The position numbers and the translations under genes are program-made. A DNA stretch of 38,396 nt from NCBI GenBank assembly GCA_944385765.1, contig CALWYL010000014.1, positions 1 to 38,396 of the forward strand, written 5' to 3'. This document shows positions 32,688-33,969 of this stretch, in pieces. How positions within the stretch are numbered: position 1 is the first letter of the stretch; the number at the start of each line of letters is the position of its first letter. The notes below the pieces were generated by a model. The model saw only the letters and a program-made list of their open reading frames with translations. It ran no database searches and was not told the DNA's origin. The stretch is from an uncultured Oscillospiraceae bacterium (GTDB taxonomy: Bacteria > Bacillota > Clostridia > Oscillospirales > Oscillospiraceae).

Positions 32688-33782
32688 TTACGCGTCCTCC
32701 TGAGCGCCGTCTCCGGACAGCTCATTGCCGCTGCCGGGCTCATCGCTCTCGCCGTCGAGCTCGCCGACCAGCTGCTCGAGCAGGTCGTTGAGCGTCACAA
32801 TGCCGGTCACGCCGCCGTACTCGTCGAGCACCACCGCCAGCCTTATGCCCTCGCTGCGCATGCGTTTGAAGAGCACGTCGGCCTTGATGCTGTCGGGCAC
32901 AAAGTAGGGCTGCTTGACGGCGGATTTCATGGCCTGCTCCGCGCCGCGCTCCGGCAGCGCGAAATAGTCCTTTATGTCCAGCACGCCCACGACGTGGTCC
33001 GTGGTCTCCTCGCACACGGGATATAGAGAGTGGCGTGAGGAGAATATCTCCCTCTCCCAGTCCTCGGTCGTCTCGTCCGCCCAGAGCACGGCCATCTGAG
33101 TGCGGTGCGTGCAGAACTCCTCCGCGGTCAGGTCGTCGAACTCGAAGAGGTTCTGGATAAACTCGTTCTCGTCCTCGCCGATGGAGCCCTTCTGGCTGCC
33201 CGCCGTGGCCATCATGCGTATCTCCTCCTCGGAGTACTCGTCCTCGTCGCTGTGCGGGTCCACGCCGATGAGGCGGAGCACGCCGTTCACGGAGGCGCTC
33301 AACAGGCTGACAATGGGCTTGAACACCTGCGATATGGCATAGAGCATGCCCGCCAGCTTGAGCGAGACGCCCTCGGGGTTCTTCATGGCCAGGCGCTTGG
33401 GCACCAGTTCGCCGAAGATAAGGGTGATGTACGAGAGTATGATGGTGACGACCACCACGCCGACGGCGACCAGCGCGCTGCGGCTGACGCTCAGGCCGAT
33501 GGCTATGAGCCCGTCGGCTATCACGCCGGCGAAGTTCGTGGCGGCGGCGGCGGAGCCGAAATAACCGGAGAGCGTGATGGCTATCTGTATGGTGGAGAGG
33601 AACCTCTCCGGCTGCTCGGTCATTTTCTTCAGCTTGACGGCCGCCTTGTTGCCGTCCGCTATCAGCTGGTCGAGCCTCGCGTCCTTGACGGATATCACCG
33701 CGATTTCCGCGCAGGCGAATACGGCGTTGCAGGCGATGAGCACGATTTGCAGGACTAGTTGCCAGACTAATGTTGAGTTCAA
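32688..33782 (-). CDS. CNNM/CorC (HlyC)-family Mg2+ transport protein lacking the C-terminal domain
   Basis: The 364-residue protein has a CNNM (DUF21) membrane domain (about 1-175; NAVFACAEIAVISVKDARLDQL, ITLIFGELVPKRLAMKNPEGVSL), an acidic linker (DPHSDEDEYSEEEIRMM), then a CBS pair (about 205-345) ending ADVLFKRMRSEGIRLAVVLDEYGGVTGIVTLNDLLEQLVGEL. Most bacterial members continue with a CorC_HlyC domain of about 80 residues; here the frame stops after a short acidic Gly/Ser tail. Characterised relatives (CorC, MpfA) move Mg2+. A leader with peptide and terminator lies upstream, and AGGAGG precedes the ATG. Confidence 0.9.
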   Translation of the reverse strand: MNSTLVWQLVLQIVLIACNAVFACAEIAVISVKDARLDQLIADGNKAAVKLKKMTEQPERFLSTIQIAITLSGYFGSAAAATNFAGVIADGLIAIGLSVSRSALVAVGVVVVTIILSYITLIFGELVPKRLAMKNPEGVSLKLAGMLYAISQVFKPIVSLLSASVNGVLRLIGVDPHSDEDEYSEEEIRMMATAGSQKGSIGEDENEFIQNLFEFDDLTAEEFCTHRTQMAVLWADETTEDWEREIFSSRHSLYPVCEETTDHVVGVLDIKDYFALPERGAEQAMKSAVKQPYFVPDSIKADVLFKRMRSEGIRLAVVLDEYGGVTGIVTLNDLLEQLVGELDGESDEPGSGNELSGDGAQEDA

Positions 33783-33829
33783 GTTAAACTTCCTCCTAAA
33801 ATTAAAAGAGACATAAAACGCGCAAAAAC

Positions 33830-33857
33830 GCCCGCACCCCCGGTGAGAGGTGCGCGC
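33830..33857 (-). terminator. Attenuator-like terminator in the CNNM gene leader
   Basis: On the minus strand GCGCGCACC pairs with GGTGCGGGC (one G-G mismatch), followed by GTTTTTG. It sits 5 bases after the stop of a tiny leader reading frame and 47 bases before the CNNM ATG, so it can end transcription before the gene. Confidence 0.65.
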
Positions 33858-33862
33858 GTCTG

Positions 33863-33913
33863 TTATAATCCTATAGAATTATCGGTACTGTTACCAGGGC
33901 CGTCGTCGTCCAT
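33863..33913 (-). CDS. Leader peptide M-D-D-D-G-P..., upstream of the CNNM gene
   Basis: A 16-codon frame, MDDDGPGNSTDNSIGL, starts at ATG 33913 with GAGGA about six bases upstream. An in-frame ATG at 33925 would add MRTA but has its GGAG only two bases away. The predicted promoter starts RNA near 33934, so this is the first thing a ribosome meets. The acidic run at the N-terminus followed by Pro is the kind of sequence that destabilises translating ribosomes at low Mg2+, as known for mgtL of E. coli. Its stop lies 5 bases before the terminator stem. Role as a Mg2+-responsive leader peptide is inferred. Confidence 0.55.
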   Translation of the reverse strand: MDDDGPGNSTDNSIGL

Positions 33914-33940
33914 AGCTGTCCTCATGTCTCCTTTTCCAGT

Positions 33941-33969
33941 ATTAGAACATATTTTAGGCGGTAAGTCAA
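33941..33969 (-). promoter_or_regulatory. Promoter of the CNNM gene leader
   Basis: On the minus strand TTGACT (33969-33964), 17 bp, TCTAAT (33946-33941). It lies just past the stop of the XRE gene and gives an untranslated leader of about 150 bases before the CNNM ATG. Confidence 0.65.

Follow-up and report, generated by a model that had tools for sequence, protein, structure and literature searches.

The CNNM locus

The window (the entire 38,396-nt stretch of DNA analyzed here) comes from a 1.93-Mb genome that, judging from its named relatives, likely belongs to the Clostridia genus Candidatus Scatomorpha. The minus strand of the window carries a gene (positions 32688 to 33782) for a 364-aa transporter of the CNNM/CorB type, which combines the CNNM (DUF21) transmembrane domain (PF01595, E = 1e-49) with a pair of CBS domains (PF00571) and whose closest solved structures, 7M1U and 7M1T, are of the CorB type (E = 2e-39). 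Upstream of this gene, on the same strand, are found a sigma-70-type promoter, TTGACT-N17-TCTAAT with an extended −10 TG (33941 to 33969; 10 of 12 matches), a Shine-Dalgarno sequence AAAAGGAG (33928 to 33935; 14 nt to the leader ATG), a 16-codon open reading frame (ORF) encoding MDDDGPGNSTDNSIGL and ending with a TAA stop codon (33863 to 33913, with the ATG at 33913), and an intrinsic terminator (33824 to 33860). The original prediction, made from the sequence alone, had proposed exactly such an arrangement of a promoter, a 16-codon frame with a ribosome site, and a terminator ahead of a CNNM gene, and all its parts were confirmed. The ATG start codon that it assigned to the CNNM gene was incorrect: this gene starts with TTG (33782), preceded by the Shine-Dalgarno sequence AGGAGG (33792 to 33797).

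The core stem of the terminator (33854 to 33833) consists of 9 pairs with a loop of 4 nt and is followed by a run of five T residues (33828 to 33824), also as predicted. When an interior loop is allowed, the hairpin extends from 33860 to 33827, with a folding energy of −24.6 kcal/mol. The leader stop codon, initially placed 5 bases before the terminator, is actually 8 nt from the core stem and 2 nt from the extended hairpin. Only 41 nt separate the end of the T run from the CNNM start codon, leaving scarcely any space for a second promoter. A second in-frame ATG (MRTA-MDDD...) is present 4 codons upstream of the leader ATG, and the GGAG is too near that ATG. The spacing from the GGAG to the leader ATG is long, and the window species also has an AGGA (33922 to 33919) 5 nt from this ATG.

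The region of the leader Shine-Dalgarno sequence (33935 to 33921, AAAAGGAGACATGAG) is complementary to a segment just past the terminator (33816 to 33802, TTTTATGTCTCTTTT) on the minus strand, with a z score of −4.5. This pairing would form one long helix around the leader and the terminator and is partly present in the two closest relatives (L003 and L004). Such a helix could conceivably silence the leader after read-through or provide a second stop.

Conservation of the leader in Clostridia

An Asp-rich leader followed by a terminator is retained in all 12 CNNM upstream regions checked within the genus, as is the AAAGGAG sequence (12 of 12); the other members of the genus also share the promoter. 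The leader peptides of this group are of the MDDG(S/P)... type, e.g., MDDGPSTSNSTGNSIRL, MDDGSSNCHQTEYEL, and MEDDGACKRNSI. One genus member (L010, G003:C158) has a leader frame, MDDGSCSHRTEYAM..., that, unlike those of its relatives, contains no stop codon before the terminator and apparently continues through the hairpin. Two contigs of a single assembly (G005:C34 and G005:C105) both carry the leader motif, reflecting either a recent duplication or assembly redundancy.

The wider comparison used the regions upstream of CNNM genes, 135 of them taken largely from the same family and order and 70 more from the class. The control sample comprised 295 genes from 400 kb of sequence from the same family, 180 of which had an intergenic gap. 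A strict automatic call required a short ORF with a Shine-Dalgarno sequence, a net acidity of at least 2 at residues 2 to 10, and a stop codon at a terminator. Such leaders were detected upstream of 25 of the 49 CNNMs (51%) that shared at least 50% identity, versus 3 of the 180 controls (1 to 2%; p = 9e-17), and upstream of 8 of the 42 class-level A-type CNNMs (p = 1e-4). The three automatic matches among the controls resemble 3′ ends of the preceding gene, and none of the 295 control genes has a convincing leader. The strict call undercounts leaders, having missed those of L003 and L057 even though they are clearly visible. When the ORF was chosen by its Shine-Dalgarno sequence and position only, ignoring its charge, one was found in 54 of 142 CNNM regions versus 17 of 295 controls (p = 1e-16), and in this charge-blind set residues 2 to 10 of the CNNM leaders clearly exceeded those of the control ORFs in acidity (p = 1e-8). 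The leader counts were not corrected for shared ancestry, and many of the genomes are fragmented assemblies.

Inspection by eye yielded 71 clear leaders, including MDDSPSLDLDSYSKFFPIDFPL, MDDIPGHIRSSKALCGLL..., MEADPEDDTAACHGCFVYRL, MDAGDSSPDPARNNV..., and MESDSDDNTAEHNKIVR. They come from at least 14 clostridial families, in which CNNM genes are preceded by leaders that are rich in Asp and Glu, in some cases also in Pro, and end in or at a terminator, which makes this element far more widespread than could be told from the single locus; the expectation that the terminator would be conserved in relatives was also borne out. The leader is absent from many CNNMs with less than 50% identity and from most of the B-type subfamily, to which a few of the 71 curated leaders belong. 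Because the layout has persisted throughout the genus, extends to at least 14 families, and is seen in only about 1 to 2% of the control genes, the association of the promoter, leader, and terminator with CNNM is not due to chance.

In a search of the genus with the Shine-Dalgarno-ATG motif, the matches that had the leader layout were CNNM loci; the others, not all of which were inspected, look like interior sites or the starts of genes. Searches of the class for MDDxP starts used two DNA patterns whose Shine-Dalgarno spacing was too short and whose T run was too near; they gave 2 matches and were uninformative with regard to other targets. The search for leaders of this kind on other genes was confined to the 400 kb of control sequence. 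In two class-level members of one family (L272 and L269), an acidic short ORF (MEDPLIPDSEDEY... and MDDVPLSETK..., respectively) ends 1 to 3 nt before the CNNM start, an arrangement that resembles, and might represent, translational coupling in place of a terminator.

Constraint on the leader peptide

Within two groups of close relatives, the leader ORF shows pN/pS ratios of 0.40 and 0.27. Between families, the nucleotide sequence is not conserved and the body of the peptide is hypervariable, and an acidic start at residues 2 to 8 recurs. In the curated leaders, Asp and Glu residues at these positions are interspersed with Gly, Ser, and Pro; Pro occupies position 5 in 23% and Glu occupies position 2 in 18% of them. 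The acidic residues are encoded by 134 GAC, 56 GAT, 23 GAA, and 7 GAG codons, which amounts to 190 Asp versus 30 Glu. Since the curated leaders were selected for acidity, these frequencies describe the set but do not test it; the unbiased test is the charge-blind comparison described above. The pN/pS values below 1, the use of both Asp and both Glu codons, and the free variation of the peptide body indicate that selection likely acts on the peptide and not on the RNA. The expectation that the peptide itself is conserved was therefore borne out by the substitution ratios and the retention of the acidic start across families. Within the genus, the first leader codons show hardly any variation, silent sites included, which leaves room for a further constraint at the nucleotide level in that group.

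The distance from the Shine-Dalgarno sequence to the start codon is also distinctive, with a median of 13 nt in the 71 leaders versus 9 nt in the control genes (p = 4e-13). This might suggest weak or altered initiation, for which no explanation is at hand.

Geometry of the leader and the terminator

Of the 69 leaders examined for promoters, 62 have one that matches at least 9 of 12 positions immediately ahead of them, compared to a shuffled expectation of 0.12, and a promoter between the terminator and CNNM was found in only 3 of 39. A transcription start downstream of the leader, which would have refuted the proposed attenuation, is accordingly not supported. The automatic call recognized an intrinsic terminator overlapping or abutting the end of the leader in 52 of the 71 curated cases. 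The leader stop codon lies from −37 to +19 nt relative to the start of the hairpin, mostly at or inside its 5′ arm, and the last early acidic codon is always 28 to 97 nt (median, 43 nt) upstream of the hairpin. Hence, these regions have two of the features expected of a leader attenuator, namely, a translated-looking ORF with a Shine-Dalgarno sequence between the promoter and the gene, and a terminator at the end of that ORF.

The leaders were also folded to look for antiterminators. The 5′ arm of the terminator paired with the RNA upstream of it no better than in shuffled sequences (mean z, 0.27; 1 of 52 below −2). As the 5′ arm has no alternative pairing beyond chance, a stalled ribosome would have no antiterminator to favor, which argues against a classical trp- or bmrB-type attenuator and points to the type in which the ribosome itself blocks the terminator. 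The acidic codons precede the hairpin by at least 28 nt, and the stop codon is usually at or in the 5′ arm of this hairpin, so that termination can be blocked only by ribosomes that translate the leader to its end. This layout predicts that completion of the leader results in the gene being read and that its abortion results in the end of transcription. The geometry and the lack of an antiterminator thus favor the sign of control suggested in the original prediction, with the gene read at high Mg2+; the Mg2+ signal, ribosome destabilization, and Mg2+ export all remain inferences.

M-boxes (RF00380) provide Mg2+-dependent control in the leaders of transporter genes. They are RNA aptamers associated mainly with importers, in contrast to the leaders described here. 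No Rfam covariance model matched the window above its gathering score, and the M-box is absent from both the window and its genome. Among the 13 genus genomes, an M-box was found in only one (L279, G008:C50:18012-18173).

Proposed mechanism and related systems

The promoter, leader, terminator, their conservation, the constraint on the peptide, and the geometry are established by the data, and no antiterminator was found. The reading that best accounts for these observations, and that we favor with moderate confidence, is an attenuator based on intrinsic ribosome destabilization (IRD), similar to MgtL and MgtQ but of the opposite sign. Ribosome drop-off, the nature of the signal, the sign of the response, and Mg2+ export are inferred, and there are no expression data. 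The sequences do have the hallmarks of IRD-type control, i.e., acidic residues (with Pro) among the first ∼10 and a CNNM gene directly downstream, with both the control of this gene and Mg2+ export by the window protein being inferred.

According to this model, transcription would begin just before the leader Shine-Dalgarno sequence, so that a ribosome could load immediately. The first codons would then encode the acidic run (residues 2 to 8), often interrupted by Pro, Gly, or Ser, which is expected to destabilize translating ribosomes at low Mg2+. With enough Mg2+, the ribosome would clear this run and reach the stop codon next to or within the terminator 5′ arm, where its footprint would prevent the hairpin from forming and RNA polymerase would continue into the gene for the putative CNNM exporter. 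At low Mg2+, the ribosome would drop off or pause at the acidic run, 28 nt or more short of the hairpin, which would then be free to form and end transcription before CNNM. Since read-through would require completion of the leader, the exporter is predicted to be made only when Mg2+ is plentiful. This inferred Mg2+-high ON switch rests on the leader layout, the precedents for IRD, and the reports on export by CNNM/CorB proteins, including the relatives MpfA and YhdP, which are regarded as Mg2+ exporters (PMC8242095).

The closest precedent is MgtL, a short leader with an early acidic and Pro motif (EPDP) that controls transcription of the Mg2+ transporter gene mgtA in E. coli and Salmonella by sensing low Mg2+ through ribosome dissociation (PMC11282234). 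Early acidic and Pro residues of MgtL destabilize the ribosomes of E. coli, an effect that is stronger at low Mg2+, although such residues are not always destabilizing (PMC11282234). MgtL serves an importer, its RNA switch exposes a terminator that depends on Rho, and ribosome drop-off activates the gene, whereas in the clostridial leaders an intrinsic terminator overlaps the leader end, the target is CNNM, and drop-off is predicted to turn the gene off. MgtL itself was rejected as an identification: the leader ends at an intrinsic terminator, no switch structure was found, and the target class and the predicted sign differ; a role for Rho was not tested. The small ORF mgtQ of the Salmonella mgtCB operon, for which IRD control by an acidic leader has been proposed, is translated less because of its residues Asp2 and Glu5 and likewise controls a Mg2+ transporter (PMC8092293), but it acts on mgtB translation via alternative stem-loops, and low Mg2+ raises the importer. 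The sign predicted here is also that proposed for the Mg2+ efflux protein CorC (YbeX), whose level in Salmonella rises in high Mg2+, with a destabilizing N-terminus proposed to limit its output at low Mg2+ (PMC12421838); its motif lies within the protein itself, without a leader or a terminator. Finally, the bmrB leader of bmrCD in B. subtilis also overlaps an intrinsic terminator and uses the ribosome as the sensor, but it has predicted antiterminator structures, none of which were found in the clostridial leaders, and is induced by drug stalling (PMC4191407).

No leader of this kind on CNNM genes was found in the open-access literature searched (subscription papers were outside the scope of the search), in line with the original claim. 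This claim needs one qualification: for CorC of Salmonella and E. coli, tuning by an IRD sequence within the N-terminus of the protein has already been suggested (PMC12421838).

Alternative explanations

The strongest alternative is a genuine attenuator that responds to some other condition hampering early elongation, such as general translation capacity, polyamines, ribosome-targeting drugs, or ABC-F factors like EttA; Mg2+ would then not be the main signal. IRD-prone starts do respond to the general state of the ribosome: EttA alters the translation of MgtL (PMC11282234), and the effect of L31 on mgtQ (PMC8092293) fits such sensing, while drug-sensing leader attenuators, such as bmrB, are also known (PMC4191407). 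However, in all of the 14 or more families, the leader accompanies genes of a Mg2+ transporter family rather than drug or stress genes, with no convincing case among the 295 controls, which makes this alternative unlikely.

Amino acid attenuation, in which the leader would count Asp (or Asp and Gly) codons and respond to charged tRNA-Asp, is much less plausible. The predominance of Asp over Glu (190 versus 30 codons) would also be expected from such an attenuator and may count against the IRD reading. Nevertheless, Glu substitutes for Asp, especially at position 2, Pro also appears in the run, Asp is encoded by either of its codons, no antiterminator favored by a stalled ribosome was found, and CNNM has no metabolic link to this amino acid.

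A switch of the opposite sign, where slowed or aborted translation causes read-through, as in bmrB or trp, and efficient translation causes termination, would work in the way that is customary for antiterminator-containing leader attenuators (PMC4191407) and would agree with MgtL turning on its gene at low Mg2+ (PMC11282234). It is contradicted by the shuffle-level pairing of the 5′ arm and by the distance of the acidic run from the hairpin, too great for a paused ribosome to mask it, and can be considered highly improbable. The remaining possibility, an RNA element acting in cis (a riboswitch) or a small, unrelated protein encoded by chance before CNNM, could draw on the pairing of the Shine-Dalgarno region past the terminator in the window species and on the DNA-level invariance of the first codons within the genus but is very hard to reconcile with the lack of Rfam matches in the window, pN/pS below 1, and the sharing between families of nothing but the acidic start in otherwise hypervariable peptides with unconserved nucleotides.

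Leaderless CNNMs and implications

Within the family, a [DE]P motif is found among the first residues of 29 of 39 leaderless CNNMs versus 7 of 46 leader-bearing ones (p = 5e-8). The N-termini of leaderless CNNMs with motifs of the DP or DPDP type include MSSDPIWPQ, MPTGDPDPILW, and MSDPDPSGS (e.g., L126 to L148, L258, L263, and L267). Such a start might be an in-gene counterpart of the leader, comparable to the motif proposed for CorC. This complementarity is absent in the class sample taken alone (p = 1), and a DP before the first transmembrane helix could be a helix cap, so that the pattern is no more than a lead. A bolder reading, slightly less likely than not, is that Mg2+ export in Clostridia is gated by the Mg2+ dependence of the ribosome itself, with the destabilizing acidic start located either in a leader whose completion is needed to block a terminator or, where there is no leader, in the N-terminus of the exporter. 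If true, this would constitute a Mg2+-high ON switch that needs neither a riboswitch nor a protein sensor, a mirror image of the enterobacterial importer leaders.

How bacterial Mg2+ exporters are switched on is poorly understood, and the IRD leaders in the enterobacterial papers cited above serve Mg2+ importers. If the favored model is correct, ribosome stability would act as a sensor, with its output reversed, in another phylum and on a large scale in gut Clostridia. With the promoter, leader, and terminator fitting into less than 200 bp, this is a compact and portable system for studying the destabilization of ribosomes by acidic nascent chains, and the approximately 70 leaders that retain little beyond the acidic start represent a natural library of such sequences.
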